Shown: positions 1 through 64,000 of the stretch, piece by piece | How positions within the stretch are numbered: position 1 is the stretch's first letter | How the letters are laid out: every line of letters starts with the position of its first letter | The notes under the pieces: model-generated | The model's database searches: none | What the model was told of the DNA's origin: nothing | The model's input: only the letters and a program-made list of their open reading frames with translations | Made by a program: the position numbers and the translations under genes | Assembly (NCBI GenBank): GCA_027574665.1 | Contig: CM050672.1 | Location: 8,974,001 to 9,038,000, forward strand | DNA from: Rhynochetos jubatus | Taxonomy: Eukaryota > Chordata > Aves > Eurypygiformes > Rhynochetidae | Direction of reading: 5' to 3' | DNA: 64,000 nucleotides

Positions 1-10
1 TAGGGTTAGG

Positions 11-1350
11 GTCCGGAGAACCAGATAGCCCACAGCTCCAGGGATAATTGGGATTGCAAAGGCCTGCCAAAAGGAGCACGACACTGCTCTGACATGGCTC
101 CTTCCCCAGCTTTCCTAGCCAGAACCCAGTGGGGGGCCGTGGCCGGAAACCGCGGTCGGCAACTTCTAGGGTTAGGGTTAGGGTCCGGAGAACCAGAAAG
201 CCCACAGCTCCAGGGATAATTGGGATTGCAAAGGCCTGCCAAGAGGAGCACGACACTGCACAGACATGGCTCCTTCCCCAGCTTTCCTAGCCAGAACCCG
301 GGGGGGGCCGTGACCGGAAACCACGGTCGGCAACTTCTAGGGTTAGGGTTAGGGTTAGGGTCCGGAGAACCAGAAAGCCCACAGCTCCAGGGATAATTGG
401 GATTGCAAAGGCCTGCCAAGAGGAGCACGACACTGCACAGACATGGCTCCTTCCCCTGCTTTCCTAGCCAGAACCCAGGGGGGGCCGAGGCCGGAAACCG
501 CGGTCGGCAACTTCTAGGGTTAGGGTTAGGGTTAGGGTTAGGGTCCGGAGAACCAGATAGCCCACAGCTCCAGGGATAATTGGGATTGCAAAGGCCTGCC
601 AAAAGGAGCACGACACTGCTCCGACATGGCTCCTTCCCCAGCTTTCCTAGCCAGAACCCAGTGGGGGGCCGTGGCCGGAAACCGCGGTCGGCAACTTCTA
701 GGGTTAGGGTTAGGGTCCGGAGAACCAGAAAGCCCACAGCTCCAGGGATAATTGGGATTGCAAAGGCCTGCCAAGAGGAGCACGACACTGCACAGACATG
801 GCTCCTTCCCCTGCTTTCCTAGCCAGAACCCGGGGGGGGCCGTGGCCGGAAACCACGGTCGGCAACTTCTAGGGTTAGGGTTAGGGTTAGGGTCCGGAGA
901 ACCAGAAAGCCCACAGCTCCAGGGATAATTGGGATTGCAAAGGCCTGCCAAGAGGAGCACGACACTGCACCGACATGGCTCCTTCCCCTGCTTTCCTAGC
1001 CAGAACCCAGGGGGGGCCGTGGCCGGAAACCGCGGTCGGCAACTTCTAGGGTTAGGGTTAGGGTTAGGGTCCGGAGAACCAGAAAGCCCACAGCTCCAGG
1101 GATAATTGGGATTGCAAAGGCCTGCCAAGAGGAGCACGACACTGCACAGACATGGCTCCTTCCCCAGCTTTCCTAGCCAGAACCCAGGGGGGGCCGTGGC
1201 CAGAAACCGCGGTCGGCAACTTCTAGGGTTAGGGTTAGGGTTAGGGTCCGGAGAACCAGAAAGCCCACAGCTCCAGGGATAATTGGGATTGCAAAGGCCT
1301 GCCAAGAGCAGCACGACACTGCACAGACATGGCTCCTTCCCCAGCTTTCC
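11..1350 (+). repeat. Left-edge block with 532 bp three-unit repeat
   Basis: The first units repeat as a trimer of 172 + 177 + 183 bp. Landmarks at 11, 183 and 360 recur 532 bp later at 543 and 715, including the odd sequence acccagtggggggcc, the ccagatagcc variant and ctgctc(c/t)gac. From about 11 to 1350 the order of variants recurs at about 4072-5410 (offset 4061), including the rare caagagcagcac at about 1305 and 5366. Block ends are approximate. Confidence 0.8.
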
Positions 1351-2302
1351 TAGCCAGAACCCAGGGGGGGCCATGGCCGGAAACCGCGGTCGGCAACTTC
1401 TAGGGTTAGGGTTAGGGTTAGGGTCCGGAGAACCAGAAAGCCCACAGCTCCAGGGATAATTGGGATTGCAAAGGCCTGCCAAGAGGAGCACGACACTGCA
1501 CAGATATGGCTCCTTCCCCTGCTTTCCTAGCCAGAACCCGGGGGGGGCCGTGGCCGGAAACCGCGGTCAGCAACTTCTAGGGTTAGGGTTAGGGTCCGGA
1601 GAAGCAGAAAGCCCACAGCTCCAGGGATAATTGGGATTGCAAAGGCCTGCCAAGAGGAGCACGACACTGCACAGACATGGCTCCTTCCCCTGCTTTCCTA
1701 GCCAGAACCCAGGGGGGGCCGTGGCCGGAAACCGCGGTCGGCAACTTCTAGGGTTAGGGTTAGGGTTAGGGTCCGGAGAACCAGAAAGCCCACAGCTCCA
1801 GGGATAATTGGGATTGCAAAGGCCTGCCAAGAGGAGCACGACACTGCACAGACATGGCTCCTTCCCCAGCTTTCCTAGCCAGAACCCCGGGGGGGCCGTG
1901 GCCGGAAACCGCGGTCGGCAACTTCTAGGGTTAGGGTTAGGGTTAGGGTCCGGAGAACCAGAAAGCCCACAGCTCCAGGGATAATTGGGATTGCAAAGGC
2001 CTGCCAAGAGGAGCACGACACTGCACAGACATGGCTCCTTCCCCAGCTTTCCTAGCCAGAACCCGGGGGGGGCCATGCCCAGAAACCGCGGTCGGCAACT
2101 TCTAGGGTTAGGGTTAGGGTTAGGGTCCGGAGAACCAGAAAGCCCACAGCTCCAGGGATAATTGGGATTGCAAAGGCCTGCCAAGAGGAGCACGACACTG
2201 CACAGACATGGCTCCTTCCCCAGCTTTCCTAGCCAGAACCCGGGGGGGGCCGTGGCCGGAAACCACGGTCGGCAACTTCTAGGGTTAGGGTTAGGGTTAG
2301 GG

Positions 2303-2479
2303 TCCGGAGAACCAGAAAGCCCACAGCTCCAGGGATAATTGGGATTGCAAAGGCCTGCCAAGAGGAGCACGACACTGCACAGACATGGCTCCTTCCCCAG
2401 CTTTCCTAGCCAGAACCCAGGGGGGGCCGTGGCCGGAAACCGCGGTCGGCAACTTCTAGGGTTAGGGTTAGGGTTAGGG
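2303..2479 (+). repeat. Representative consensus monomer (177 bp, three TTAGGG)
   Basis: This copy matches my by-eye consensus at every position. Order within the unit: tccggagaaccagaaag; an A/T-richer patch containing ggataattgggattgc; the palindrome AGGCCT; cacgacactgcacagac; atggctccttccccagc; cctagccagaaccca followed by seven G; the CpG-rich segment ccgtggccggaaaccgcgg; ggcaacttc; and the telomeric block. By hand count it has 106 G or C bases of 177 and seven CpG, five of them within about 24 bp just upstream of the hexamers. No RNA polymerase III box and no CENP-B box was seen. Confidence 0.95.
2457..2479 (+). repeat. Telomeric block, standard form (TAGGG + 3 TTAGGG)
   Basis: Twenty-three bases of perfect vertebrate-type telomere repeat lie between cttc and tccgga. 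The block has exactly four GGG runs separated by TTA, the minimum for one intramolecular telomeric G-quadruplex. It also contains overlapping TAGGGTTA sites of the kind bound by the Myb domains of TRF1 and TRF2. Most units in the window carry this form, always on the + strand. Quadruplex formation and shelterin binding are inferred from motif identity only. Confidence 0.95.
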
Positions 2480-2603
2480 TCCGGAGAACCAGAAAGTCCA
2501 CAGCTCCAGGGATAATTGGGATTGCAAAGGCCTGCCAAGAGGAGCACGACACTGCACCGACATGGCTCCTTCCCCAGCTTTCCTAGCCAGAACCCAGGGG
2601 GGG

Positions 2604-2622
2604 CCGTGGCCGGAATCCACGG
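2604..2622. repeat. Short dyad, potential hairpin (ccgtgg / ccacgg)
   Basis: CCGTGG at 2604-2609 and CCACGG at 2617-2622 are perfect inverted repeats around a 7 base loop. Allowing one G-T pair, the stem can extend to about 8 bp. In the common unit the right arm is CCGCGG, which pairs through one G-T wobble in RNA. The perfect version occurs in scattered units, often with the sister change ggaatccacgg (for example 30894, 46714, 50606, 54680 and 63536). Function is unknown. Confidence 0.6.
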
Positions 2623-4061
2623 TCGGCAACTTCTAGGGTTAGGGTTAGGGTTAGGGTCCGGAGAACCAGAAAGCCCACAGCTCCAGGGATAATTGGGATT
2701 GCAAAGGCCTGCCAAGAGGAGCACGACACTGCACAGATATGGCTCCTTCCCCTGCTTTCCTAGCCAGAACCCGGGGGGGGCCGTGGCCGGAAACCGCGGT
2801 CAGCAACTTCTAGGGTTAGGGTTAGGGTCCGGAGAACCAGAAAGCCCACAGCTCCAGGGATAATTGGGACTGCAAAGGCCTGCCAAGAGGAGCACGGCAC
2901 TGCTCCGACATGGCTCCTTCCCCTGCTTTCCTAGCCAGAACCCAGGGGGGGCCGTGGCCGGAAACCGCGGTCGGCAACTTCTAGGGTTAGGGTTAGGGTT
3001 AGGGTCCGGAGAACCAGAAAGCCCACAGCTCCAGGGATAATTGGGATTGCAAAGGCCTGCCAAGAGGAGCACGACACTGCACAGACATGGCTCCTTCCCC
3101 AGCATTCCTAGCCAGAACCCAGGGGGGGCCGTGGCCGGAAACCGCGGTCGGCAACTTCTAGGGTTAGGGTTAGGGTTAGGGTCCGGAGAACCAGAAAGCC
3201 CACAGCTCCAGGGATAATTGGGATTGCAAAGGCCTGCCAAGAGGAGCACGACACTGCACAGACATGGCTCCTTCCCCAGCTTTCCTAGCCAGAACCCGGG
3301 GGGGGCCATGCCCAGAAACCGCGGTCGGCAACTTCTAGGGTTAGGGTTAGGGTTAGGGTCCGGAGAACCAGAAAGCCCACAGCTCCAGGGATAATTGGGA
3401 TTGCAAAGGCCTGCCAAGAGGAGCACGACACTGCACCGACATGGCTCCTTCCCCAGCTTTCCTAGCCAGAACCCGGGGGGGGCCGTGGCCGGAAACCACG
3501 GTCGGCAACTTCTAGGGTTAGGGTTAGGGTTAGGGTCCGGAGAACCAGAAAGCCCACAGCTCCAGGGATAATTGGGATTGCAAAGGCCTGCCAAGAGGAG
3601 CACGACACTGCACCGACATGGCTCCTTCCCCAGCATTCCTAGCCAGAACCCAGGGGGGGCCGTGGCCGGAAACCGCGGTCGGCAACTTCTAGGGTTAGGG
3701 TTAGGGTTAGGGTCCGGAGAACCAGAAAGCCCACAGCTCCAGGGATAATTGGGATTGCAAAGGCCTGCCAAGAGGAGCACGACACTGCACAGACATGGCT
3801 CCTTCCCCAGCTTTCCTAGCCAGAACCCGGGGGGGGCCATGCCCAGAAACCGCGGTCGGCAACTTCTAGGGTTAGGGTTAGGGTTAGGGTCCGGAGAACC
3901 AGAAAGCCCACAGCTCCAGGGATAATTGGGATTGCAAAGGCCTGCCAAGAGGAGCACGACACTGCACAGACATGGCTCCTTCCCCTGCTTTCCTAGCCAG
4001 AACCCCGTGGGGGCCGTGGCCGGAAACCGCGGTCGGCAACTTCTAGGGTTAGGGTTAGGGT

Positions 4062-5410: not shown

Positions 5411-5461
5411 CTAGCCAGAACCCAGGGGGGGCCGTGGCCGGAAACCGCGGTCGGCAACTTC

Positions 5462-5490
5462 TAGGGTTAGGGTTAGGGTTAGGGTTAGGG
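5462..5490 (+). repeat. Telomeric block, long form (TAGGG + 4 TTAGGG)
   Basis: This is an example of the 29 bp block with five GGG runs. I identified 32 units with this form. They lie across 0.4-54.9 kb, for example ending near 541, 4070, 8500, 10258, 12370, 13951, 24562, 31121, 32896, 41079, 42861, 50835 and 54909. In 19 of the 32 the next unit begins with the variant ccagatagcc instead of ccagaaagcc. A second group is linked to the variant cctgctctcctag earlier in the same unit (near 19507, 22692, 23587, 28194, 34584, 36005 and 37262). Confidence 0.88.
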
Positions 5491-15319: not shown

Positions 15320-16729
15320 TCAGCAACTTCTAGGGTTAGGGTTAGGGTCCGGAGAACCAGAAAGCCCACAGCTCCAGGGATAATTGGGATTGCAAAGGCC
15401 TGCCAAGAGGAGCACGACACTGCACAGACATGGCTCCTTCCCCTGCTTTCCTAGCCAGAACCCGGGGGGGGCCGTGGTCGGAAACCACGGTCGGCAACTT
15501 CTAGGGTTAGGGTTAGGGTTAGGGTCCGGAGAACCAGAAAGCCCACAGCTCCAGGGATAATTGGGATTGCAAAGGCCTGCCAAGAGGAGCACGACACTGC
15601 ACAGACATGGCTCCTTCCCCAGCTTTCCTAGCCAGAACCCAGGGGGGGCCGTGGCCGGAAACCGCGGTCGGCAACTTCTAGGGTTAGGGTTAGGGTTAGG
15701 GTCCGGAGAACCAGAAAGCCCACAGCTCCAGGGATAATTGGGATTGCAAAGGCCTGCCAAGAGGAGCACGACACTGCACCGACATGGCTCCTTCCCCAGC
15801 TTTCCTAGCCAGAACCCAGGGGGGGCCGTGGCCAGAAACCGCGGTCGGCAACTTCTAGGGTTAGGGTTAGGGTTAGGGTCCGGAGAACCAGAAAGCCCAC
15901 AGCTCCAGGGATAATTGGGATTGCAAAGGCCTGCCAAGAGGAGCACGACACTGCACAGACATGGCTCCTTCCCCAGCTTTCCTAGCCAGAACCCGGGGGG
16001 GGCCATGCCCAGAAACCGCGGTCGGCAACTTCTAGGGTTAGGGTTAGGGTTAGGGTCCGGAGAACCAGAAAGCCCACAGCTCCAGGGATAATTGGGATTG
16101 CAAAGGCCTGCCAAGAGGAGCACGACACTGCACAGACATGGCTCCTTCCCCTGCTTTCCTAGCCAGAACCCAGGGGGGGCCGTGGCCGGAAACCGCGGTC
16201 GGCAACTTCTAGGGTTAGGGTTAGGGTTAGGGTCCGGAGAACCAGAAAGCCCACAGCTCCAGGGATAATTGGGATTGCAAAGGCCTGCCAAGAGGAGCAC
16301 GACACTGCACCGACATGGCTCCTTCCCCAGCTTTCCTAGCCAGAACCCAGGGGGGGCCGTGGCCAGAAACCGCGGTCGGCAACTTCTAGGGTTAGGGTTA
16401 GGGTTAGGGTCCGGAGAACCAGAAAGCCCACAGCTCCAGGGATAATTGGGATTGCAAAGGCCTGCCAAGAGCAGCACGACACTGCACAGACATGGCTCCT
16501 TCCCCAGCTTTCCTAGCCAGAACCCAGGGGGGGCCGTGGCCGGAAACCGCGGTCGGCAACTTCTAGGGTTAGGGTTAGGGTTAGGGTCCGGAGAACCAGA
16601 AAGCCCACAGCTCCAGGGATAATTGGGATTGCAAAGGCCTGCCAAGAGGAGCACGACACTGCACAGATATGGCTCCTTCCCCTGCTTTCCTAGCCAGAAC
16701 CCAGGGGGGGCCGTGGCCGGAAACCGCGG
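15320..16729 (+). repeat. Eight-unit block bridging two higher-order repeat families
   Basis: This 1410 bp block is bounded by ggtcagcaac plus two-hexamer junctions. Its right part (about 16.2-16.73 kb) matches about 17.8-18.32 kb at an offset of 1587 bp, including caagagcagcac and gtggccagaaac. Its left part is closer to the ten-unit repeat before it. It therefore looks like a transition produced by unequal exchange. Confidence 0.65.
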
Positions 16730-19700
16730 TCAGCAACTTCTAGGGTTAGGGTTAGGGTCCGGAGAACCAGAAAGCCCACAGCTCCAGGGATAATTGGGAT
16801 TGCAAAGGCCTGCCAAGAGGAGCACGACACTGCACAGACATGGCTCCTTCCCCTGCTTTCCTAGCCAGAACCCGGGGGGGGCCGTGGCCGGAAACCGCGG
16901 TCGGCAACTTCTAGGGTTAGGGTTAGGGTTAGGGTCCGGAGAACCAGAAAGCCCACAGCTCCAGGGATAATTGGGATTGCAAAGGCCTGCCAAGAGGAGC
17001 ACGACACTGCACAGACATGGCTCCTTCCCCAGCTTTCCTAGCCAGAACCCGGGGGGGGCCATGCCCAGAAACCGCGGTCGGCAACTTCTAGGGTTAGGGT
17101 TAGGGTTAGGGTCCGGAGAACCAGAAAGCCCACAGCTCCAGGGATAATTGGGATTGCAAAGGCCTGCCAAGAGGAGCACGACACTGCACAGACATGGCTC
17201 CTTCCCCTGCTTTCCTAGCCAGAACCCAGGGGGGGCCGTGGCCGGAAACCGCGGTCGGCAACTTCTAGGGTTAGGGTTAGGGTTAGGGTCCGGAGAACCA
17301 GAAAGCCCACAGCTCCAGGGATAATTGGGATTGCAAAGGCCTGCCAAGAGGAGCACGACACTGCACAGACATGGCTCCTTCCCCAGCTTTCCTAGCCAGA
17401 ACCCCGTGGGGGCCGTGGCCGGAAACCGCGGTCGGCAACTTCTAGGGTTAGGGTTAGGGTTAGGGTCCGGAGAACCAGATAGCCCACAGCTCCAGGGATA
17501 ATTGGGATTGCAAAGGCCTGCCAAGAGGAGCACGACACTGCTCCGACATGGCTCCTTCCCCAGCTTTCCTAGCCAGAACCCAGGGGGGGCCGTGGCCGGA
17601 AACCGCGGTCGGCAACTTCTAGGGTTAGGGTTAGGGTTAGGGTCCGGAGAACCAGAAAGCCCACAGCTCCAGGGATAATTGGGATTGCAAAGGCCTGCCA
17701 AGAGGAGCACGACACTGCACCGACATGGCTCCTTCCCCTGCTTTCCTAGCCAGAACCCAGGGGGGGCCGTGGCCGGAAACCGCGGTCGGCAACTTCTAGG
17801 GTTAGGGTTAGGGTTAGGGTCCGGAGAACCAGAAAGCCCACAGCTCCAGGGATAATTGGGATTGCAAAGGCCTGCCAAGAGGAGCACGACACTGCACCGA
17901 CATGGCTCCTTCCCCAGCTTTCCTAGCCAGAACCCAGGGGGGGCCGTGGCCAGAAACCGCGGTCGGCAACTTCTAGGGTTAGGGTTAGGGTTAGGGTCCG
18001 GAGAACCAGAAAGCCCACAGCTCCAGGGATAATTGGGATTGCAAAGGCCTGCCAAGAGCAGCACGACACTGCACAGACATGGCTCCTTCCCCAGCTTTCC
18101 TAGCCAGAACCCAGGGGGGGCCGTGGCCGGAAACCGCGGTCGGCAACTTCTAGGGTTAGGGTTAGGGTTAGGGTCCGGAGAACCAGAAAGCCCACAGCTC
18201 CAGGGATAATTGGGATTGCAAAGGCCTGCCAAGAGGAGCACGACACTGCACAGATATGGCTCCTTCCCCTGCTTTCCTAGCCAGAACCCAGGGGGGGCCG
18301 TGGCCGGAAACCGCGGTCAGCAACTTCTAGGGTTAGGGTTAGGGTCCGGAGAACCAGAAAGCCCACAGCTCCAGGGATAATTGGGATTGCAAAGGCCTGC
18401 CAAGAGGAGCACGACACTGCACAGACATGGCTCCTTCCCCTGCTTTCCTAGCCAGAACCCGGGGGGGGCCGTGGCCGGAAACCGCGGTCGGCAACTTCTA
18501 GGGTTAGGGTTAGGGTTAGGGTCCGGAGAACCAGAAAGCCCACAGCTCCAGGGATAATTGGGATTGCAAAGGCCTGCCAAGAGGAGCACGACACTGCACC
18601 GACATGGCTCCTTCCCCAGCTTTCCTAGCCAGAACCCGGGGGGGCCGTGGCCGAAAACCGCGGTCGGCAACTTCTAGGGTTAGGGTTAGGGTTAGGGTCC
18701 GGAGAACCAGAAAGCCCACAGCTCCAGGGATAATTGGGATTGCAAAGGCCTGCCAAGAGGAGCACGACACTGCACAGACATGGCTCCTTCCCCAGCTTTC
18801 CTAGCCAGAACCCAGGGGGGGCCGTGGCCGGAAACCGCGGTCGGCAACTTCTAGGGTTAGGGTTAGGGTTAGGGTCCGGAGAACCAGAAAGCCCACAGCT
18901 CCAGGGATAATTGGGATTGCAAAGGCCTGCCAAGAGGAGCACGACACTGCACAGACATGGCTCCTTCCCCAGCTTTCCTAGCCAGAACCCGGGGGGGGCC
19001 GTGGCCGGAAACCGCGGTCGGCAACTTCTAGGGTTAGGGTTAGGGTTAGGGTCCGGAGAACCAGAAAGCCCACAGCTCCAGGGATAATTGGGATTGCAAA
19101 GGCCTGCCAAGAGGAGCACGACACGGCACAGACATGGCTCCTTCCCCAGCTTTCCTAGCCAGAACCCGGGGGGGGCCGTGGCCGGAAACCGCGGTCGGCA
19201 ACTTCTAGGGTTAGGGTTAGGGTTAGGGTCCGGAGAACCAGAAAGCCCACAGCTCCAGGGATAATTGGGATTGCAAAGGCCTGCCAAGAGGAGCACGACA
19301 CTGCACAGACATGGCTCCTTCCCCTGCTTTCCTAGCCAGAACCCCGGGGGGGCCGTGGCCGGAAACCGCGGTCGGCAACTTCTAGGGTTAGGGTTAGGGT
19401 TAGGGTTAGGGTCCGGAGAACCAGAAAGCCCACAGCTCCAGGGATAATTGGGATTGCAAAGGCCTGCCAAGAGGAGCACGACACTGCACCGACATGGCTC
19501 CTTCCCCTGCTCTCCTAGCCAGAACCCCGGGGGGGCCGTGGCCGGAAACCGCGGTCGGCAACTTCTAGGGTTAGGGTTAGGGTTAGGGTTAGGGTCCGGA
19601 GAACCAGAAAGCCCACAGCTCCAGGGATAATTGGGATTGCAAAGGCCTGCCAAGAGCAGCACGACACTGCACAGACATGGCTCCTTCCCCAGCTTTCCTA

Positions 19701-19914
19701 GCCAGAACCCAGGGGGGGCCGTGGCCGGAAACCGCGGTCGGCAACTTCTAGGGTTAGGGTTAGGGTTAGGGTCCGGAGAACCAGAAAGCCCACAGCTCCA
19801 GGGATAATTGGGATTGCAAAGGCCTGCCAAGAGGAGCACGACACTGCACAGATATGGCTCCTTCCCCTGCTTTCCTAGCCAGAACCCAGGGGGGGCCGTG
19901 GCCGGAAACCGCGG
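16730..19914 (+). repeat. Large higher-order repeat, copy A (3185 bp, 18 units)
   Basis: An 18-unit block in which internal junctions fall at 16730 and 18317. It contains a distinctive 176 bp unit (gggggggccgtggccgaaaacc near 18640), cgacacggcacag near 19120 and two adjacent four-hexamer units (19265-19630). Positions 16730 to about 19650 recur at 19915 to about 22835 (offset 3185), with no difference noticed at the landmarks I compared. Its last ~265 bp recur at 25149-25412 (offset 5498). Confidence 0.85.
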
Positions 19915-22900
19915 TCAGCAACTTCTAGGGTTAGGGTTAGGGTCCGGAGAACCAGAAAGCCCACAGCTCCAGGGATAATTGGGATTGCAAAGGCCTGCCA
20001 AGAGGAGCACGACACTGCACAGACATGGCTCCTTCCCCTGCTTTCCTAGCCAGAACCCGGGGGGGGCCGTGGCCGGAAACCGCGGTCGGCAACTTCTAGG
20101 GTTAGGGTTAGGGTTAGGGTCCGGAGAACCAGAAAGCCCACAGCTCCAGGGATAATTGGGATTGCAAAGGCCTGCCAAGAGGAGCACGACACTGCACAGA
20201 CATGGCTCCTTCCCCAGCTTTCCTAGCCAGAACCCGGGGGGGGCCATGCCCAGAAACCGCGGTCGGCAACTTCTAGGGTTAGGGTTAGGGTTAGGGTCCG
20301 GAGAACCAGAAAGCCCACAGCTCCAGGGATAATTGGGATTGCAAAGGCCTGCCAAGAGGAGCACGACACTGCACAGACATGGCTCCTTCCCCTGCTTTCC
20401 TAGCCAGAACCCAGGGGGGGCCGTGGCCGGAAACCGCGGTCGGCAACTTCTAGGGTTAGGGTTAGGGTTAGGGTCCGGAGAACCAGAAAGCCCACAGCTC
20501 CAGGGATAATTGGGATTGCAAAGGCCTGCCAAGAGGAGCACGACACTGCACAGACATGGCTCCTTCCCCAGCTTTCCTAGCCAGAACCCCGTGGGGGCCG
20601 TGGCCGGAAACCGCGGTCGGCAACTTCTAGGGTTAGGGTTAGGGTTAGGGTCCGGAGAACCAGATAGCCCACAGCTCCAGGGATAATTGGGATTGCAAAG
20701 GCCTGCCAAGAGGAGCACGACACTGCTCCGACATGGCTCCTTCCCCAGCTTTCCTAGCCAGAACCCAGGGGGGGCCGTGGCCGGAAACCGCGGTCGGCAA
20801 CTTCTAGGGTTAGGGTTAGGGTTAGGGTCCGGAGAACCAGAAAGCCCACAGCTCCAGGGATAATTGGGATTGCAAAGGCCTGCCAAGAGGAGCACGACAC
20901 TGCACCGACATGGCTCCTTCCCCTGCTTTCCTAGCCAGAACCCAGGGGGGGCCGTGGCCGGAAACCGCGGTCGGCAACTTCTAGGGTTAGGGTTAGGGTT
21001 AGGGTCCGGAGAACCAGAAAGCCCACAGCTCCAGGGATAATTGGGATTGCAAAGGCCTGCCAAGAGGAGCACGACACTGCACCGACATGGCTCCTTCCCC
21101 AGCTTTCCTAGCCAGAACCCAGGGGGGGCCGTGGCCAGAAACCGCGGTCGGCAACTTCTAGGGTTAGGGTTAGGGTTAGGGTCCGGAGAACCAGAAAGCC
21201 CACAGCTCCAGGGATAATTGGGATTGCAAAGGCCTGCCAAGAGCAGCACGACACTGCACAGACATGGCTCCTTCCCCAGCTTTCCTAGCCAGAACCCAGG
21301 GGGGGCCGTGGCCGGAAACCGCGGTCGGCAACTTCTAGGGTTAGGGTTAGGGTTAGGGTCCGGAGAACCAGAAAGCCCACAGCTCCAGGGATAATTGGGA
21401 TTGCAAAGGCCTGCCAAGAGGAGCACGACACTGCACAGATATGGCTCCTTCCCCTGCTTTCCTAGCCAGAACCCAGGGGGGGCCGTGGCCGGAAACCGCG
21501 GTCAGCAACTTCTAGGGTTAGGGTTAGGGTCCGGAGAACCAGAAAGCCCACAGCTCCAGGGATAATTGGGATTGCAAAGGCCTGCCAAGAGGAGCACGAC
21601 ACTGCACAGACATGGCTCCTTCCCCTGCTTTCCTAGCCAGAACCCGGGGGGGGCCGTGGCCGGAAACCGCGGTCGGCAACTTCTAGGGTTAGGGTTAGGG
21701 TTAGGGTCCGGAGAACCAGAAAGCCCACAGCTCCAGGGATAATTGGGATTGCAAAGGCCTGCCAAGAGGAGCACGACACTGCACCGACATGGCTCCTTCC
21801 CCAGCTTTCCTAGCCAGAACCCGGGGGGGCCGTGGCCGAAAACCGCGGTCGGCAACTTCTAGGGTTAGGGTTAGGGTTAGGGTCCGGAGAACCAGAAAGC
21901 CCACAGCTCCAGGGATAATTGGGATTGCAAAGGCCTGCCAAGAGGAGCACGACACTGCACAGACATGGCTCCTTCCCCAGCTTTCCTAGCCAGAACCCAG
22001 GGGGGGCCGTGGCCGGAAACCGCGGTCGGCAACTTCTAGGGTTAGGGTTAGGGTTAGGGTCCGGAGAACCAGAAAGCCCACAGCTCCAGGGATAATTGGG
22101 ATTGCAAAGGCCTGCCAAGAGGAGCACGACACTGCACAGACATGGCTCCTTCCCCAGCTTTCCTAGCCAGAACCCGGGGGGGGCCGTGGCCGGAAACCGC
22201 GGTCGGCAACTTCTAGGGTTAGGGTTAGGGTTAGGGTCCGGAGAACCAGAAAGCCCACAGCTCCAGGGATAATTGGGATTGCAAAGGCCTGCCAAGAGGA
22301 GCACGACACGGCACAGACATGGCTCCTTCCCCAGCTTTCCTAGCCAGAACCCGGGGGGGGCCGTGGCCGGAAACCGCGGTCGGCAACTTCTAGGGTTAGG
22401 GTTAGGGTTAGGGTCCGGAGAACCAGAAAGCCCACAGCTCCAGGGATAATTGGGATTGCAAAGGCCTGCCAAGAGGAGCACGACACTGCACAGACATGGC
22501 TCCTTCCCCTGCTTTCCTAGCCAGAACCCCGGGGGGGCCGTGGCCGGAAACCGCGGTCGGCAACTTCTAGGGTTAGGGTTAGGGTTAGGGTTAGGGTCCG
22601 GAGAACCAGAAAGCCCACAGCTCCAGGGATAATTGGGATTGCAAAGGCCTGCCAAGAGGAGCACGACACTGCACCGACATGGCTCCTTCCCCTGCTCTCC
22701 TAGCCAGAACCCCGGGGGGGCCGTGGCCGGAAACCGCGGTCGGCAACTTCTAGGGTTAGGGTTAGGGTTAGGGTTAGGGTCCGGAGAACCAGAAAGCCCA
22801 CAGCTCCAGGGATAATTGGGATTGCAAAGGCCTGCCAAGAGGAGCACGACACTGCACAGACATGGCTCCTTCCCCAGCTTTCCTAGCCAGAACCCAGGGG

Positions 22901-35400: not shown

Positions 35401-35749
35401 TCCAGGGATAATTGGGATTGCAAAGGCCTGCCAAGAGGAGCACGACACTTCACAGACATGGCTCCTTCCCCTGCTTTCCTAGCCAGAACCCGGGGGGGGC
35501 CGTGGCCGGAAACCACGGTCGGCAACTTCTAGGGTTAGGGTTAGGGTTAGGGTCCGGAGAACCAGAAAGCCCACAGCTCCAGGGATAATTGGGATTGCAA
35601 AGGCCTGCCAAGAGGAGCACGACACTGCACAGACATGGCTCCTTCCCCTGCTTTCCTAGCCAGAACCCGGGGTGGGCCGTGGCCGGAAACCGCGGTCGGC
35701 AACTTCTAGGGTTAGGGTTAGGGTTAGGGTCCGGAGAACCAGAAAGCCC

Positions 35750-44080: not shown

Positions 44081-44734
44081 GGTTAGGGTTAGGGTTAGGG
44101 TCCGGAGAACCAGAAAGCCCACAGCTCCAGGGATAATTGGGATTGCAAAGGCCTGCCAAGAGGAGCACGACACTGCACCGACATGGCTCCTTCCCCAGCT
44201 TTCCTAGCCAGAACCCAGGGGGGGCCGTGGCCGGAAACCGCGGTCGGCAACTTCTAGGGTTAGGGTTAGGGTTAGGGTCCGGAGAACCAGAAAGCCCACA
44301 GCTCCAGGGATAATTGGGATTGCAAAGGCCTGCCAAGAGGAGCACGACACTGCACAGACATGGCTCCTTCCCCAGCTTTCCTAGCCAGAACCCAGGGGGG
44401 GCCGTGGCCGGAAACCGCGGTCGGCAACTTCTAGGGTTAGGGTTAGGGTTAGGGTCCGGAGAACCAGAAAGCCCACAGCTCCAGGGATAATTGGGATTGC
44501 AAAGGCCTGCCAAGAGGAGCACGACACTGCACCGACATGGCTCCTTCCCCTGCTTTCCTAGCCAGAACCCAGGGGGGGCCGTGGCCGGAAACCGCGGTCG
44601 GCAACTTCTAGGGTTAGGGTTAGGGTTAGGGTCCGGAGAACCAGAAAGCCCACAGCTCCAGGGATAATTGGGATTGCAAAGGCCTGCCAAGAGGAGCACG
44701 ACACTGCACCGACATGGCTCCTTCCCCAGCTTTC

Positions 44735-53140: not shown

Positions 53141-55389
53141 ACCAGAAAGCCCACAGCTCCAGGGATAATTGGGATTGCAAAGGCCTGCCAAGAGGAGCAC
53201 GACACTGCACAGACATGGCTCCTTCCCCAGCTTTCCTAGCCAGAACCCGGGGGGGGCCGTGGCCGGAAACCGCGGTCGGCAACTTCTAGGGTTAGGGTTA
53301 GGGTTAGGGTCCGGAGAACCAGAAAGCCCACAGCTCCAGGGATAATTGGGATTGCAAAGGCCTGCCAAGAGGAGCACGACACTGCACAGACATGGCTCCT
53401 TCCCCTGCTTTCCTAGCCAGAACCCAGGGGGGGCCGTGGCCGGAAACCGCGGTCGGCAACTTCTAGGGTTAGGGTTAGGGTTAGGGTCCGGAGAACCAGA
53501 AAGCCCACAGCTCCAGGGATAATTGGGATTGTAAAGGCCTGCCAAGAGGAGCACGACACTGCACAGACATGGCTCCTTCCCCAGCTTTCCTAGCCAGAAA
53601 CCCGGGGGGGCCGTGGCCGGAAACCGCGGTCGGCAACTTCTAGGGTTAGGGTTAGGGTTAGGGTCCGGAGAACCAGAAAGCCCACAGCTCCAGGGATAAT
53701 TGGGATTGCAAAGGCCTGCCAAGAGGAGCACGACACTGCACAGACATGGCTCCTTCCCCTGCTTTCCTAGCCAGAACCCGGGGGGGGCCGTGGCCGGAAA
53801 CCGCGGTCGGCAACTTCTAGGGTTAGGGTTAGGGTTAGGGTCCGGAGAACCAGAAAGCCCACAGCTCCAGGGATAATTGGGATTGCAAAGGCCTGCCAAG
53901 AGGAGCACGACACTGCACAGACATGGCTCCTTCCCCAGCTTTCCTAGCCAGAACCCAGGGGGGGCCGTGGCCGGAAACCGCGGTCGGCAACTTCTAGGGT
54001 TAGGGTTAGGGTTAGGGTCCGGAGAACCAGAAAGCCCACAGCTCCAGGGATAATTGGGATTGCAAAGGCCTGCCAAGAGGAGCACGACACTGCACAGACA
54101 TGGCTCCTTCCCCTGCTTTCCTATCCAGAACCCGGGGGGGGCCGTGGCCGGAAACCGCGGTCGGCAACTTCTAGGGTTAGGGTTAGGGTTAGGGTCCGGA
54201 GAACCAGAAAGCCCACAGCTCCAGGGATAATTGGGATTGCAAAGGCCTGCCAAGAGGAGCATGACACTGCACAGACATGGCTCCTTCCCCAGCTTTCCTA
54301 GCCAGAACCCAGGGGGGGCCGTGGCCGGAAACCGCGGTCGGCAACTTCTAGGGTTAGGGTTAGGTTTAGGGTCCGGAGAACCAGAAAGCCCACAGCTCCA
54401 GGGATAATTGGGATTGCAAAGGCCTGCCAAGAGGAGCACGACACTGCACAGACATGGCTCCTTCCCCAGCTTTCCTAGCCAGAAACCCGGGGGGGCTGTG
54501 GCCGGAAACCGCGGTCGGCAACTTCTAGGGTTAGGGTTAGGGTTAGGGTCCGGAGAACCAGAAAGCCCACAGCTCCAGGGATAATTGGGATTGCAAAGGC
54601 CTGCCAAGAGGAGCACGACACTGCACAGACATGGCTCCTTCCCCTGCTTTCCTAGCCAGAACCCAGAGGGGGCCGTGGCCGGAATCCACGGTCGGCAACT
54701 TCTAGGGTTAGGGTTAGGGTTAGGGTCCGGAGAACCAGAAAGCCCACAGCTCCAGGGATAATTGGGATTGCAAAGGCCTGCCAAGAGGAGCACGACACTG
54801 CACAGACATGGCTCCTTCCCCTGCTTTCCTAGCCAGAACCCAGGGGGGGCCGTGGCCGGAAACCGCGGTCGGCAACTTCTAGGGTTAGGGTTAGGGTTAG
54901 GGTTAGGGTCCGGAGAACCAGATAGCCCACAGCTCCAGGGATGATTGGGATTGCAAAGGCCTGCCAAGAGGAGCACGACACTGCACAGACATGGCTCCTT
55001 CCCCTGCTTTCCTAGCCAGAACCCAGTGGGGGCCGTGGCCGGAAACCGCGGTCGGCAACTTCTAGTGTTAGGGTTAGGGTTAGGGTCCGGAGAAACAGAA
55101 AGCCCACAGCTCCAGGGATAATTGGGATTGCAAAGGCCTGCCAAGAGGAGCACGACACTGCACCGACATGGCTCCTTCCCCTGCTTTCCTAGCCAGAACC
55201 CAGGGGGGGCCGTGGCCGGAAACCGCGGTCGGCAACTTCTAGGGTTAGGGTTAGGGTTAGGGTCCGGAGAACCAGAAAGCCCACAGCTCCAGGGATAATT
55301 GGGATTGCAAAGGCCTGCCAAGAGGAGCACGACACTGCACCGACATGGCTCCTTCCCCAGCTTTCCTAGCCAGAACCCAGGGGGGGCCA

Positions 55390-56450
55390 TGCCCAGAAAC
55401 CGCGGTCGGCAACTTCTAGGGTTAGGGTTAGGGTTAGGGTCCGGAGAACCAGAAAGCCCACAGCTCCAGGGATAATTGGGATTGCAAAGGCCTGCCAAGA
55501 GGAGCACGACACTGCACAGACATGGCTCCTTCCCCAGCTTTCCTAGCCAGAACCCAGGGGGGGGCGTGGCCGGAATCCACGGTCGGCAACTTCTAGGGTT
55601 AGGGTTAGGGTTAGGGTCCAGAGAACCAGAAAGCACACAGCTCCACGGATAATTGGGATTGCAAAGGCCTGCCAAAAGGAGCACGACACTGCACAGACAT
55701 GGCTCCTTCCCCAGCTTTCCTAGCCAGAACCCAGGGGGGGCCGTGGCCGGAAACCGCGGTCGGCAACTTCTAGGGTTAGGGTTAGGGTTAGGGTCCCTAG
55801 AACCAGAAAGCCCACAGCTCCAGGGATAATTGGGATTGCAAAGGCCTGCCAAGAGGAGCACGACACTGCACAGACATGGCTCCTTCCCCAGCTTTCCTAG
55901 CCAGAACCCAGGGGGGGCCGTGGCCGGAAACCGCGGTCGGCAACTTCTAGGGTTAGGGTTAGGGTTAGGGTCCGGAGAACCAGAAAGCCCACAGCTCCAG
56001 GGATAATTGGGATTGCAAAGGCCTGCCAAGAGGAGCACGACACTGCACAGACATGGCTCCTTCCCCTGCTTTCCTAGCCAGAACCCAGGGGGGGCCGTGG
56101 CCGGAAACCGCGGTCGGCAACTTCTAGGGTTAGGGTTAGGGTTAGGGTCCGGAGAACCAGAAAGCCCACAGCTCCAGGGATAATTGGGATTGCAAAGGCC
56201 TGCCAAGAGGAGCACGACACTGCACAGACATGGCTCCTTCCCCTGCTTTCCTAGCCAGAACCCAGGGGGGGCCGTGGCCGGAAACCGCGGTCGGCAACTT
56301 CTAGGGTTAGGGTTAGGGTTAGGGTCCGGAGAACCAGAAAGCCCACAGCTCCAGGGATAATTGGGATTGCAAAGGCCTGCCAAGAGGAGCATGACACTGC
56401 ACAGACATGGCTCCTTCCCCAGCTTTCCTAGCCAGAACCCAGGGGGGGCC
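55390..56450 (+). repeat. 1062 bp tandem duplication, copy 1 (six units)
   Basis: Six units repeat immediately at an offset of 1062 bp. Diagnostic pairs: ggggggggcgtgg with ggaatccacgg; gtccagagaaccagaaagcacac (55616 and 56678, described by position); gggtccctagaacc (about 55791 and 56853); and gagcatgacac (about 56390 and 57452). I saw no difference between the copies in the stretches compared. This copy begins just after a ccatgcccag unit. Confidence 0.85.
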
Positions 56451-57513
56451 ATGCCCAGAAACCGCGGTCGGCAACTTCTAGGGTTAGGGTTAGGGTTAGG
56501 GTCCGGAGAACCAGAAAGCCCACAGCTCCAGGGATAATTGGGATTGCAAAGGCCTGCCAAGAGGAGCACGACACTGCACAGACATGGCTCCTTCCCCAGC
56601 TTTCCTAGCCAGAACCCAGGGGGGGGCGTGGCCGGAATCCACGGTCGGCAACTTCTAGGGTTAGGGTTAGGGTTAGGGTCCAGAGAACCAGAAAGCACAC
56701 AGCTCCACGGATAATTGGGATTGCAAAGGCCTGCCAAAAGGAGCACGACACTGCACAGACATGGCTCCTTCCCCAGCTTTCCTAGCCAGAACCCAGGGGG
56801 GGCCGTGGCCGGAAACCGCGGTCGGCAACTTCTAGGGTTAGGGTTAGGGTTAGGGTCCCTAGAACCAGAAAGCCCACAGCTCCAGGGATAATTGGGATTG
56901 CAAAGGCCTGCCAAGAGGAGCACGACACTGCACAGACATGGCTCCTTCCCCAGCTTTCCTAGCCAGAACCCAGGGGGGGCCGTGGCCGGAAACCGCGGTC
57001 GGCAACTTCTAGGGTTAGGGTTAGGGTTAGGGTCCGGAGAACCAGAAAGCCCACAGCTCCAGGGATAATTGGGATTGCAAAGGCCTGCCAAGAGGAGCAC
57101 GACACTGCACAGACATGGCTCCTTCCCCTGCTTTCCTAGCCAGAACCCAGGGGGGGCCGTGGCCGGAAACCGCGGTCGGCAACTTCTAGGGTTAGGGTTA
57201 GGGTTAGGGTCCGGAGAACCAGAAAGCCCACAGCTCCAGGGATAATTGGGATTGCAAAGGCCTGCCAAGAGGAGCACGACACTGCACAGACATGGCTCCT
57301 TCCCCTGCTTTCCTAGCCAGAACCCAGGGGGGGCCGTGGCCGGAAACCGCGGTCGGCAACTTCTAGGGTTAGGGTTAGGGTTAGGGTCCGGAGAACCAGA
57401 AAGCCCACAGCTCCAGGGATAATTGGGATTGCAAAGGCCTGCCAAGAGGAGCATGACACTGCACAGACATGGCTCCTTCCCCAGCTTTCCTAGCCAGAAC
57501 CCAGGGGGGGCCA
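56451..57513 (+). repeat. 1062 bp tandem duplication, copy 2 (six units)
   Basis: Second copy of the six-unit block. It contains the same private changes, including gtccctagaacc, a combination seen nowhere else in the window. Homology to copy 1 ends at the next unit, where cccctgc replaces ccccagc near 57655. Confidence 0.85.
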
Positions 57514-60300
57514 TGCCCAGAAACCGCGGTCGGCAACTTCTAGGGTTAGGGTTAGGGTTAGGGTCCGGAGAACCAGAAAGCCCACAGCTCCAGGGATAAT
57601 TGGGATTGCAAAGGCCTGCCAAGAGGAGCACGACACTGCACAGACATGGCTCCTTCCCCTGCTTTCCTAGCCAGAACCCAGGGGGGGCCGTGGCCGGAAA
57701 CCGCGGTCGGCAACTTCTAGGGTTAGGGTTAGGGTTAGGGTCTGGAGAACCAGAAAGCCCACAGCTCCAGGGATAATTGGGATTGCAAAGGCCTGCCAAG
57801 AGGAGCACGACACTGCACCGACATGGCTCCTTCCCCAGCTTTCCTAGCCAGAACCCAGGGGGGGCCGTGGCCGGAAACCGCGGTCGGCAACTTCTAGGGT
57901 TAGGGTTAGGGTTAGGGTCCGGAGAACCAGAAAGCCCACAGCTCCAGGGATAATTGGGATTGCAAAGGCCTGCCAAGAGGAGCACGACACTGCACCGACA
58001 TGGCTCCTTCCCCAGTTTTCCTAGCCAGAACCCAGGGGGGGCCATGCCCAGAAACAGCGGTCGGCAACTTCTAGGGTTAGGGTTAGGGTTAGGGTCCGGA
58101 GAACCAGAAAGCCCACAGCTCCAGGGATAATTGGGATTGCAAAGGCCTGCCAAGAGGAGCACGACACTGCACCAACATGGCTCCTTCCCCTGCTTTCCTA
58201 GCCAGAACCCAGGGGGGGCCGTGGCCGGAAACCGCGGTCGGCAACTTCTAGGGTTAGGGTTAGGGTTAGGGTCCGGAGAACCAGAAAGCCCACAGCTCCA
58301 GGGATAATTGGGATTGCAAAGGCCTGCCAAGAGGAGCACGACACTGCACAGACATGGCTCCTTCCCCTGCTTTCCTAGCCAGAACCCAGGGGGGTCCGTG
58401 GCCGGAAACCGCGGTCGGCAACTTCTAGGGTTAGGGTTAGGGTTAGGGTCCGGAGAACCAGAAAGCCCACAGCTCCAGGGATAATTGGGATTGCAAAGGC
58501 CTGCCAAGAGGAGCACGACACTGCACAGACATGGCTCCTTCCCCTGCTTTCCTAGCCAGAACCCAGGGGGGGCCGTGGCCGGAATCCACGGTCGGCAACT
58601 TCTAGGGTTAGGGTTAGGGTTAGGGTCCGGAGAACCAGAAAGCCCACAGCTCCAGGGATAATTGGGATTGCAAAGGCCTGCCAAGAGGAGCACGACACTG
58701 CACCGACATGGCTCCTTCCCCAGCTTTCCTAGCCAGAACCCAGGGGGGGCCGTGGCCGGAAACCGTGGTCGGCAACTTCTAGGGTTAGGGTTAGGGTTAG
58801 GGTCCGGAGAACCAGAAAGCCCACAGCTCCAGGGATAATTGGGATTGCAAAGGCCTGCCAAGAGGAGCACGACACTGCACCGACATGGCTCCTTCCCCTG
58901 CTTTCCTAGCCAGAACCCAGGGGGGGCCGTGGCCGGAAACCGCGGTCGGCAACTTCTAGGGTTAGGGTTAGGGTTAGGGTCCGGAGAACCAGAAAGCCCA
59001 CAGCTCCAGGGATAATTGGGATTGCAAAGGCCTGCCAAGAGGAGCACGACACTGCACAGACATGGCTCCTTCCCCTGCTTTCCTAGCCAGAACCCAGGGG
59101 GGGCCGTGGCCGGAAACCGCGGTCGGCAACTTCTAGGGTTAGGGTTAGGGTTAGGGTCCGGAGAACCAGAAAGCCCACAGCTCCACGGATAATTGGGATT
59201 GCAAAGGCCTGCCAAGAGGAGCATGACACTGCACAGACATGGCTCCTTCCCCAGCTTTCCTAGCCAGAACCCAGGGGGGGCCATGCCCAGAAACCGCGGT
59301 CGGCAAATTCCAGGGTTAGGGTTAGGGTTAGGGTCCGGAGAACCAGAAAGCCCACAGCTCCAGGGATAATTGGGATTGCAAAGGCCTGCCAAGAGGAGCA
59401 CGACACTGCACAGACATGGCTCCTTCCCCTGCTTTCCTAGCCAGAACCCAGGGGGGGCCGTGGCCGGAAACCGCGGTCGGCAACTTCTAGGGTTAGGGTT
59501 AGGGTTAGGGTCTGGAGAACCAGAAAGCCCACAGCTCCAGGGATAATTGGGATTGCAAAGGCCTGCCAAGAGGAGCACGACACTGCACCGACATGGCTCC
59601 TTCCCCAGCTTTCCTAGCCAGAACCCAGGGGGGGCCGTGGCCGGAAACCGCGGTCGGCAACTTCTAGGGTTAGGGTTAGGGTTAGGGTCCGGAGAACCAG
59701 AAAGCCCACAGCTCCAGGGATAATTGGGATTGCAAAGGCCTGCCAAGAGGAGCACGACACTGCACCGACATGGCTCCTTCCCCAGCTTTCCTAGCCAGAA
59801 CCCAGGGGGGGCCATGCCCAGAAACCGCGGTCGGCAACTTCTAGGGTTAGGGTTAGGGTTAGGGTCCGGAGAACCAGAAAGCCCACAGCTCCAGGGATAA
59901 TTGGGATTGCAAAGGCCTGCCAAGAGGAGCACGACACTGCACCGACATGGCTCCTTCCCCTGCTTTCCTAGCCAGAACCCAGGGGGGGCCGTGGCCGGAA
60001 ACCGCGGTCGGCAACTTCTAGGGTTAGGGTTAGGGTTAGGGTCCGGAGAACCAGAAAGCCCACAGCTCCAGGGATAATTGGGATTGCAAAGGCCTGCCAA
60101 GAGGAGCACAACACTGCACAGACATGGCTCCTTCCCCTGCTTTCCTAGCCAGAACCCAGGGGGGGCCGTGGCCGGAAACCGCGGTCGGCAACTTCTAGGG
60201 TTAGGGTTAGGGTTAGGGTCCGGAGAACCAGAAAGCCCACAGCTCCAGGGATAATTGGGATTGCAAAGGCCTGCCAAGAGGAGCATGACACTGCACAGAC
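57452..60300 (+). repeat. 1770 bp (ten-unit) duplication, second copy partial
   Basis: Landmarks gagcatgacac with ccatgcccag (57452 and 59222) and gtctggagaacc (57740 and 59510) recur at 1770 bp, exactly ten units. The following ccatgcccag units also match (58041 and 59811). A third gagcatgacac unit appears after only six units (60284), so the second copy is cut short. Private changes such as gaaacagcgg (58050) and aaattccaggg (59306) show some divergence. Confidence 0.78.
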
Positions 60301-63300
60301 ATGGCTCCTTCCCCAGCTTTCCTAGCCAGAACCCAGGGGGGGCCATGCCCAGAAACCGCGGTCGGCAACTTCTAGGGTTAGGGTTAGGTTTAGGGTCCGG
60401 AGAACCAGAAAGCCCACAGCTCCAGGGATAATTGGGATTGCAAAGGCCTGCCAAGAGGAGCACGACACTGCACCGACATGGCTCCTTCCCCGGCTTTCCT
60501 AGCCAGAACCCAGGGGGGGCCATGCCCAGAAACCGCGGTCGGCAACTTCTAGGGTTAGGGTTAGGGTTAGGGTCCGGAGAACCAGAAAGCCCACAGCTCC
60601 AGGGATAATTGGGATTGCAAAGGCCTGCCAAGAGGAGCACGACACTGCACCGACATGGCTCCTTCCCCAGCTTTCCTAGCCAGAACCCAGGGGGGGCCGT
60701 GGCCGGAATCCACGGTCGGCAACTTCTAGGGTTAGGGTTAGGGTTAGGGTCCGGAGAACCAGAAAGCCCACAGCTCCACGGATAATTGGGATTGAAAGGC
60801 CTGCCAAAAGGAGCACGACACTGCACAGACATGGCTCCTTCCCCTGCTTTCCTAGCCAGAACCCAGGGGGGGCCGTGGCCGGAAACCGCGGTCGGCAACT
60901 TCTAGGGTTAGGGTTAGGGTTAGGGTCTGGAGAACCAGAAAGCCCACAGCTCCAGGGATAATTGGGATTGCAAAGGCCTGCCAAGAGGAGCACGACACTG
61001 CACCGACATGGCTCCTTCCCCTGCTTTCCTAGCCAGAACCCAGGGGGGGCCGTGGCCGGAAACCGCGGTCGGCAACTTCTAGGGTTAGGGTTAGGGTTAG
61101 GGTCCGGAGAACCAGAAAGCCCACAGCTCCAGGGATAATTGGGATTGCAAAGGCCTGCCAAGAGGAGCACGACACTGCACCGACATGGCTCCTTCCCCGG
61201 CTTTCCTAGCCAGAACCCAGGGGGGGCCGTGGCCGGAAACCGCGGTCGGCAACTTCTAGGGTTAGGGTTAGGGTTAGGGTCCGGAGAACCAGAAAGCCCA
61301 CAGCTCCAGGGATAATTGGGATTGCAAAGGCCTGCCAAGAGGAGCACGACACTGCACCGACATGGCTCCTTCCCCAGCTTTCCTAGCCAGAACCCAGGGG
61401 GGGCCGTGGCCGGAAACCGTGGTCGGCAACTTCTAGGGTTAGGGTTAGGGTTAGGGTCCGGAGAACCAGAAAGCCCACAGCTCCAGGGATAATTGGGATT
61501 GCAAAGGCCTGCCAAGAGGAGCACGACACTGCACCGACATGGCTCCTTCCCCTGCTTTCCTAGCCAGAACCCAGGGGGGGCCGTGGCCGGAAACCGCGGT
61601 CGGCAACTTCTAGGGTTAGGGTTAGGGTTAGGGTCCGGAGAACCAGAAAGCCCACAGCTCCAGGGATAATTGGGATTGCAAAGGCCTGCCAAGAGGAGCA
61701 CGACACTGCACAGACATGGCTCCTTCCCCAGCTTTCCTAGCCAGAAACCCGGGGGGGCCGTGGCCGGAAACCGCGGTCGGCAACTTCTAGGGTTAGGGTT
61801 AGGGTTAGGGTCCGGAGAACCAGAAAGCCCACAGCTCCAGGGATAATTGGGATTGCAAAGGCCTGCCAAGAGGAGCACGACACTGCACAGACATGGCTCC
61901 TTCCCCTGCTTTCCTAGCCAGAACCCAGGGGGGGCCGTGGCCGGAATCCACGGTCGGCAAATTCTAGGGTTAGGGTTAGGGTTAGGGTCCGGAGAACCAG
62001 AAAGCCCACAGCTCCAGGGATAATTGGGATTGCAAAGGCCTGCCAAGAGGAGCACGACACTGCACAGACATGGCTCCTTCCCCAGCTTTCCTAGCCAGAA
62101 CCCGGGGGGGGCCGTGGCCGGAAACCGCGGTCGGCAACTTCTAGGGTTAGGGTTAGGGTTAGGGTCCGGAGAACCAGATAGCCCACAGCTCCAGGGATGA
62201 TTGGGATTGCAAAGGCCTGCCAAGAGGAGCACGACACTGCACAGACATGGCTCCTTCCCCTGCTTTCCTAGCCAGAACCCAGGGGGGGCCGTGGCCGAAA
62301 ACCGCTGTCGGCAACTTCTAGGGTTAGGGTTAGGGTTAGGGTCCGGAGAACCAGAAAGCCCACAGCTCCAGGGATAATTGGGATTGCAAAGGCCTGCCAA
62401 GAGGAGCACGACACTGTACAGACATGGCTCCTTCCCCTGCTTTCCTAGCCAGAACCCGGGGGGGGCCGTGGCCGGAAACCGCGGTCGGCAACTTCTAGGG
62501 TTAGGGTTAGGGTTAGGGTCCGGAGAACCAGAAAGCCCACAGCTCCAGGGATAATTGGGATTGCAAAGGCCTGCCAAGAGGAGCACGACACTGCACCGAC
62601 ATGGCTCCTTCCCCAGCTTTCCTAGCCAGAACCCAGGGGGGGCCATGCCCAGAAACCGTGGTCGGCAACTTCTAGGGTTAGGGTTAGGGTTAGGGTCCGG
62701 AGAACCAGAAAGCCCACAGCTCCAGGGATAATTGGGATTGCAAAGGCCTGCCAAGAGGAGCACGACACTGCACAGACATGGCTCCTTCCCCTGCTTTCCT
62801 AGCCAGAACCCAGGGGGGGCCGTGGCCGGAATCCACGGTCGGCAACTTCTAGGGTTAGGGTTAGGGTTAGGGTCCGGAGAACCAGAAAGCCCACAGCTCC
62901 AGGGATAATTGGGATTGCAAAGGCCTGCCAAGAGGAGCACGACACTGCACAGACATGGCTCCTTCCCCTGCTTTCCTAGCCAGAACCCAGGGGGGGCCGT
63001 GGCCGGAAACCGCGGTCGGCAACTTCTAGGGTTAGGGTTAGGGTTAGGGTCCGGAGAACCAGAAAGCCCACAGCTCCAGGGATAATTGGGATTGCAAAGG
63101 CCTGCCAAGAGGAGCACGACACTGCACAGACATGGCTCCTTCCCCAGCTTTCCTAGCCAGAACCCGGGGGGGGCCGTGGCCGGAAACCGCGGTCGGCAAC
63201 TTCTAGGCTTAGGGTTAGGGTTAGGGTCCGGAGAACCAGAAAGCCCACAGCTCCAGGGATAATTGGGATTGCAAAGGCCTGCCAAGAGGAGCACGACACT

Positions 63301-64000
63301 GCACAGACATGGCTCCTTCCCCTGCTTTCCTAGCCAGAACCCAGGGGGGGCCGTGGCCGGAAACCGCGGTCGGCAACTTCTAGGGTTAGGGTTAGGGTTA
63401 GGGTCCGGAGAACCAGAAAGCCCACAGCTCCACGGATAATTGGGATTGCAAAGGCCTGCCAAGAGGAGCACGACACTGCACAGACATGGCTCCTTCCCCT
63501 GCTTTCCTAGCCAGAACCCAGGGGGGGCCGTGGCCGGAATCCACGGTCGGCAACTTCTAGGGTTAGGGTTAGGGTTAGGGTCCAGAGAACCAGAAAGCCC
63601 ACAGCTTCACGGATAATTGGGATTGAAAGGCCTGCCAAAAGCAGCACGACACTGCACAGACATGGCTCCTTCCCCTGCTTTCCTAGCCAGAACCCAGGGG
63701 GGGCCGTGGCCGGAAACTGCCGTCGGCAACTTCTAGGGTTAGGGTTAGGGTTAGGGTCCGGAGAACCAGAAAGCCCACAGCTCCAGGGATAATTGGGATT
63801 GCAAAGGCCTGCCAAGAGGAGCACGACACTGCACCGACATGGCTCCTTCCCCAGCTTTCCTAGCCAGAACCCAGGGGGGGCCGTGGCCGGAAACCGCGGT
63901 CGGCAACTTCTAGGGTTAGGGTTAGGTTTAGGGTCCGGAGAACCAGAAAGCCCACAGCTCCAGGGATAATTGGGATTGCAAAGGCCTGCCAAGAGGAGCA
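60301..64000 (+). repeat. Right-edge part of the array
   Basis: Ordinary units of the right-hand subfamily continue to the edge. A variant unit with ctccacgg and attgaaagg occurs near 60751, and a full gtccagag form near 63580 carries acagcttcacgg and caaaagcagcac. Near 62178 a standard block is followed by ccagatagcc and ggatgattgg, the allele pair linked to long blocks elsewhere. The last bases end inside a unit, so no array border is visible. Confidence 0.85.

Follow-up and report, generated by a model that had tools for sequence, protein, structure and literature searches.

Organisation of a tandem array with telomeric hexamers in its units

The 64,000 nucleotides analysed here, referred to as the window, come from the forward strand of contig CM050672.1 (positions 8,974,001 to 9,038,000) of the Rhynochetos jubatus assembly GCA_027574665.1 and are occupied over their whole length (1..64000) by one tandem repeat, whose unit joins a short block of TTAGGG hexamers to a longer, GC-rich, non-telomeric core. 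Tandem Repeats Finder describes this array with a period of 177, 361.4 copies, 96% matches and 1% indels, and its further 32 rows represent individual five-hexamer blocks within the main array. The array and examples of its parts are the following.

1..64000, plus strand: entire array, made up of 361 complete units in head-to-tail order with a modal length of 177 bp, both ends of the window lying inside the array
338..514, plus strand: example of the modal 177-bp unit, consisting of the block at 338-360 and the core at 361-514
338..360, plus strand: example of the modal block, TAGGG(TTAGGG)3, 23 bp; the length is shared by 302 of 361 blocks and the very sequence by 282 of 361
167..183, plus strand: example of the short block, 17 bp (26 of 361)
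515..543, plus strand: example of the long block, 29 bp (33 of 361)
361..514, plus strand: example of the non-telomeric core, 154 bp, with 61% G+C in the consensus and no match to a family in Rfam or Pfam

A preliminary description of this DNA had proposed a unit of about 177 bp, in which a segment of about 154 bp meets a TTAGGG block at the same junctions every time, and this arrangement was recovered in all 361 units. The consensus unit reads TAGGG(TTAGGG)3 followed by the 154-bp core, and the block invariably lies between a CTTC and a TCCGGA junction and hence at a single insertion site, as parsed with up to 3 edits allowed in a 12-base left anchor and up to 5 in a 21-base right anchor. The accompanying picture of one short, perfect block per unit needs to be qualified: TTAGGG phase is perfect in 336 of the 361 blocks, the remaining 25 carry substitutions, and the block is not constant but occurs in the three lengths listed above, which differ in steps of one hexamer.

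These results were complemented by a scan that located telomeric runs, defined as at least two AGGG in phase, without dividing the array into units. It returned 363 runs, 340 of them flanked by an exact GCAACTTC on the left and 326 by an exact TCCGGAGA on the right. Such runs make up 12.7% of the window, in good agreement with the density of about 13% over more than 64 kb that had been estimated beforehand, both window ends being within the array, and the longest perfect run measures 29 bp. The motif TTAGGGTTAGGG has 697 matches, whereas 100 dinucleotide shuffles yield an average of 0.05 and never more than 1. TTAGGG is present 1,070 times on the plus strand and CCCTAA not once in the window, showing that a single orientation is kept throughout.

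The register of the array is equally regular. A 25-base core motif, scanned with a tolerance of up to 4 substitutions, occurs 362 times in the window, and the 361 intervals between its occurrences measure 177 bp in 279 cases, 183 bp in 33, 171 bp in 22, 176 bp in 22, 172 bp in four and 178 bp in one. According to this tally there is no unit out of register and no inserted element between the first and the last core motif. G+C content is likewise even along the window, ranging from 58.9 to 60.5% per 2-kb step.

As a long head-to-tail array of near-identical non-coding units, the repeat is satellite DNA in the generic sense, and with hexamers at a fixed position in every unit it belongs to the composite satellites with telomeric repeats. 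It does not behave as a heterochromatic interstitial telomeric sequence (ITS), given the shortness of its longest perfect run and the modest share of the window taken up by telomeric runs. Our best verdict is that the 64-kb array is an ordinary composite satellite, a further example of a kind already described and not a new mechanism.

Homogenisation, inheritance of the block and CpG decay

The units have a mean identity of 97.9% to the consensus and a mean pairwise identity of 96.5%. Identity is nearly independent of distance (0.966 for units 1-5 apart, 0.964 for units 151-360 apart), as is expected under array-wide homogenisation. A higher-order repeat was considered and rejected, as no lag between 1 and 119 stands out; the best value, 0.970 at lag 31, compares with a background of about 0.966, and the signals at lags 31 and 18 correspond in position to recent local duplications in the region of about 16-29 kb. 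There are 370 maximal exact repeats of at least 300 bp in the array, and from the longest 45 of them two recent duplications can be described.

16387..22841, plus strand: recent tandem duplication, in which 3,270 bp at 16387-19656 recur exactly at 19572-22841, a shift of 3,185 bp or 18 units
55342..57659, plus strand: second recent duplication, 1,256 bp exact, with copies starting at 55342 and 56404, a shift of 1,062 bp or 6 units

The lag-18 duplication comprises 19 monomers with a mean identity of 0.9997. Nine of the ten longest exact repeats lie within 16135-27102, with shifts of about 9, 18, 22, 27, 31, 40 and 49 units, and recent amplification seems to be concentrated in this part of the array. 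Duplications that keep the register in this way fit unequal exchange or a similar process, which we would favour over, for example, rolling-circle reinsertion.

The length of the telomeric block is inherited together with the core. Block length is mixed in 4 of 56 multi-copy core haplotypes, and on a FastTree tree of the core, from which the block columns were excluded, it changes 19 times, compared with 43-53 times in 50 label shuffles. A block that was rebuilt by telomerase or very prone to slippage would be expected to vary in length without regard to the core, but the observed length does follow it. The captured block seems to undergo rare whole-hexamer changes and no telomerase-like lengthening, and length classes one hexamer apart in combination with inherited length represent a small but useful result on the ageing of captured telomeric tracts.

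Substitutions in the array additionally carry the mark of cytosine methylation, seen as an excess of C>T and G>A changes at CpG columns. Among the 14 CpG columns, 209 variant copies are C>T or G>A and 8 are other changes, compared with 78 transitions and 121 transversions at the other C/G columns outside the block. Since variant copies are not independent events, the changes were also counted as distinct variants, giving 13 versus 7 at CpG columns and 20 versus 31 at the other columns. In combination with TTAGGG as the telomere sequence and an array of this type, such decay points to a vertebrate host, although it could arise in other methylating genomes too.

Origin of the composite unit and competing explanations

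We consider it likely that the array is a composite satellite of a CpG-methylating genome with TTAGGG telomeres, probably that of a vertebrate, in which a telomeric tract was captured once, the resulting pair was amplified and homogenised, and the block has since been carried passively in heterochromatin. Founding event, amplifying process, chromosomal place and the absence of a specific function are what we infer here beyond the structure of the array itself. A GC-rich segment would once have acquired a short telomeric tract, next to it or within it, either where telomere and subtelomere meet or through an insertion when a double-strand break was repaired. Tract and segment together would then have become the unit, amplified and homogenised by unequal exchange or an equivalent process to more than 64 kb, with the block as a passenger that now and then changes by a whole hexamer, probably through slippage, and that telomerase presumably does not rebuild. 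Judging from comparable satellites, the array would most likely form subterminal or pericentromeric heterochromatin and have no sequence-specific job.

The amplification of one ancestral junction, as already suggested in the preliminary description, is supported by the single site in all 361 units, the inheritance of block length with the core and the recent exact duplications in register, all of which would fit it. PMC6410037 and PMC8537989 describe short telomeric tracts at interstitial sites and the insertion of such tracts where breaks have been repaired, and such an insertion is a plausible founding event for a satellite. According to reviews, subtelomeres often contain interspersed telomeric tracts, and these can be components of longer repeats (PMC5615363, PMC9498494). 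The array would in this way record the fate of a telomeric tract captured in a satellite, whose evolution here seems no different from that of the remaining unit.

Likeness to known repeats was judged from descriptions rather than from sequence alignment. FA-SAT, the major satellite of the domestic cat, has a unit of 483 bp with telomere-like hexamers, and the heavy satellite of baleen whales is a terminal repeat of about 422 bp, each unit of which contains unique sequence and TTAGGG subrepeats. The 177-bp repeat of Trypanosoma brucei has exactly the unit length found here; it is AT-rich, in a genome with telomeres only at chromosome ends, and with the window array at 60% G+C we judge the match to be a coincidence of length.

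The novelty implied in the preliminary description is weakened by satellites containing or associated with telomeric repeats that have already been published from a bat and, by citation in the same paper, from a fish and a plant (PMC12467311). The bat repeat is CpeSat05-72 of Carollia perspicillata, where (TTAGGG) repeats are part of the satellite unit as they are here, although that unit has 72 bp and 56% A+T, compared with about 177 bp and 60% G+C in the window (PMC12467311). DraI from Pagellus erythrinus and RUSI from Rumex induratus, both cited in the same paper, are subtelomeric satellites containing or associated with telomeric motifs; those of RUSI are degenerate, whereas most blocks of the window array (336 of 361) are perfect. 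FA-SAT resembles the window array in being GC-rich with CpG sites and lies chiefly at the telomeres of the cat, with some centromeres as secondary sites (PMC6379292); the term TTAGGG is absent from that paper. MarmoSAT, a subterminal satellite of Callitrichini, has a 170/171-bp unit (PMC7767330, PMC13041921) close to the minor 171-bp length seen here in 22 of 361 intervals; the modal unit of the window has 177 bp, and the two repeats may or may not be related. A point in common is that MarmoSAT is described without array-specific homogenisation (PMC13041921, PMC7767330). In the common marmoset it is reported to form a 338-bp higher-order unit (PMC7767330), of which no counterpart was seen in the window, and PMC13041921 does not use the term TTAGGG. 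At muntjac fusion sites, telomeric repeats are joined to satellite I in one direction, as in the window, but there the satellite array is adjoined by a single telomeric block or a few of them (22-837 bp), instead of carrying one block per unit (PMC2760882). In Eulemur, finally, a telomeric repeat next to a longer one has been amplified at sites other than chromosome ends (Ec6/Ec548), with the difference that megabases of pure TTAGGG carry interspersed 548-bp repeats, while both components are fused into one unit here (PMC13228423).

The lemur case also provides an argument for a centromeric role, according to which the array would be a kinetochore-bearing repeat with co-opted telomeric sequence, as in collared brown lemurs. 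Long TTAGGG arrays act as centromeres in Eulemur collaris, yet Ec6 consists of pure TTAGGG with interspersed 548-bp repeats and not of a composite unit (PMC13228423). The homogeneity of the array and its unit of roughly nucleosomal size are in keeping with a centromere. The consensus lacks a CENP-B box, as the full 17-bp box is unmatched within 6 mismatches and its core positions reach 3 mismatches at best. Many centromeric satellites have no such box, and the want of a higher-order repeat at lags 1-119, which speaks against a centromere as well, is shared by some of them. We regard this role as conceivable but doubtful; it concerns the place and use of the array, is compatible with an origin by amplification and is therefore to be rated independently of the passively carried satellite preferred here.

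Two observations weigh against the view of the block as a mere passenger in a captured and amplified unit. Over all variants, the substitution frequency is lower in the block, at 0.34%, compared with 1.64% for the core, and when gaps are ignored the block ranks 16th of 177 windows for intactness, with 93.4% against a median of 84.8%. With gaps counted the block drops to 63rd of 177 windows (86.1% versus 82.8%), and the excess of substitutions in the core stems largely from a few shared variants in a few variable columns. For variants confined to 5 units or fewer, block columns have a frequency of 0.23%, CpG columns one of 0.34% and the remaining columns one of 0.19%. With private variants about equal and the core excess traced to few shared ones, a specific constraint on the block is not indicated. 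There is no good evidence for special maintenance of the block; this exclusion is not a strong one, and weak constraint is possible.

The same figures bear on a functional docking array, in which the blocks would be kept for binding of TRF1/TRF2 or for G-quadruplex folding and would recruit shelterin or protect or silence the region. The consensus unit holds three sites in one orientation that fit YTAGGGTTR, the binding-site consensus of duplex telomere proteins; four GGG runs with short loops are present in 315 of 361 blocks, and 288 of 361 have exactly four GGG runs. The lower overall substitution frequency of the block would also suit this explanation; its private substitutions, about as frequent as in the rest of the unit, and its rank for intactness with gaps counted do not. 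Moreover, 46 of 361 blocks are without the four-run motif and yet persist in the array, and four runs may simply reflect the length of the founder. We therefore hold a docking function to be unlikely, and protein binding and G-quadruplex formation, as far as they can be predicted from the block sequence, to be possible side effects. Quite unlikely, too, is the bolder proposal of an undescribed satellite whose evenly spaced putative telomere-protein sites and about four GGG runs per nucleosome-sized unit would recruit shelterin or G-quadruplex factors to non-telomeric heterochromatin and so titrate or reposition them.

We likewise find it very unlikely that the array is a terminal one, produced by recombination or telomerase, with units carrying telomeric repeats spread between chromosome ends and blocks serving as live telomere seeds. 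Repeated duplication of units and the uniform orientation of TTAGGG, as at a chromosome end, could be read in this way, but any head-to-tail satellite would show a single orientation just as well, block length is inherited and restricted to three values, and the window contains no long TTAGGG tract beyond the perfect run of 29 bp. An origin of the core from a telomerase RNA that was copied back into DNA along with telomeric repeats and then amplified (TERC-ITS type) is exceedingly unlikely in view of searches against Rfam, which includes vertebrate telomerase RNA. No family was matched, either at gathering score over the whole window or, with a limit of E = 1, within bases 1-3000; known TERC-ITS fragments, of 25-98 bp, may be short enough to escape such searches. 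Loci of this type are on record, 41 of them in 22 of the 30 vertebrate species surveyed (PMC8537989).

There may also be practical consequences. If the species has many such arrays, telomere-length assays based on polymerase chain reaction or hybridisation, as well as telomere fluorescence in situ hybridisation, could catch non-telomeric signal. If such arrays are abundant, short reads with TTAGGG could furthermore be misassigned.

The non-telomeric core and its open reading frames

Besides the Rfam searches described above, the core was compared with several further collections. The six frames of the consensus have no Pfam match up to E = 1, and a tRNA search of the window gave zero hits. Phage and plasmid records contain no match to a 531-base query, and neither an exact 22-base core match in viral and prokaryote contigs nor a 19-base junction match in viral contigs was found; such collections are poor ones for a vertebrate satellite and these negatives are little informative. 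Twelve fragments of 14-18 bases are absent from the full text of the open-access literature searched, and the unit itself was not found in this literature, a scope outside which lie most subscription papers and all repeat databases. The excerpts of PMC12818792, PMC6820872, PMC5615363, PMC9498494 and PMC8122249 name no satellite with this 177-bp unit.

Judged against 60 mononucleotide shuffles, internal repeats within the core do not exceed chance, with a forward self score of 13 versus a 95th percentile of 19 and an inverted self score of 16 versus 26, and the same applies to a relic telomeric stretch in the core (13 versus 14). A stable single-strand fold was rejected, as one 177-base stretch (163-339) has a z of 0.76 and is equalled or surpassed in folding by 154 of 200 shuffles.

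Open frames of at least 150 amino acids number 41, and every one of them is on the minus strand. The largest extend over 2,789, 1,493 and 1,175 amino acids at 52529-60898, 47387-51868 and 21810-25337, respectively. A coding reading of these long frames was dismissed; they probably exist because the unit length is divisible by three, and the six consensus frames are without a Pfam match. A gene finder could mistake them for proteins.

Two positions of the anchor-based consensus unit are polymorphic over the whole array (n = 361): position 76 is A in 185 units, T in 169, C in 2 and G in 5, and position 96 is A in 237, G in 88, C in 35 and T in 1. A stretch of some seven G in the core (e.g. 478-484) seems to be one base longer or shorter between units, and this length variation may explain some of the 176-bp units.

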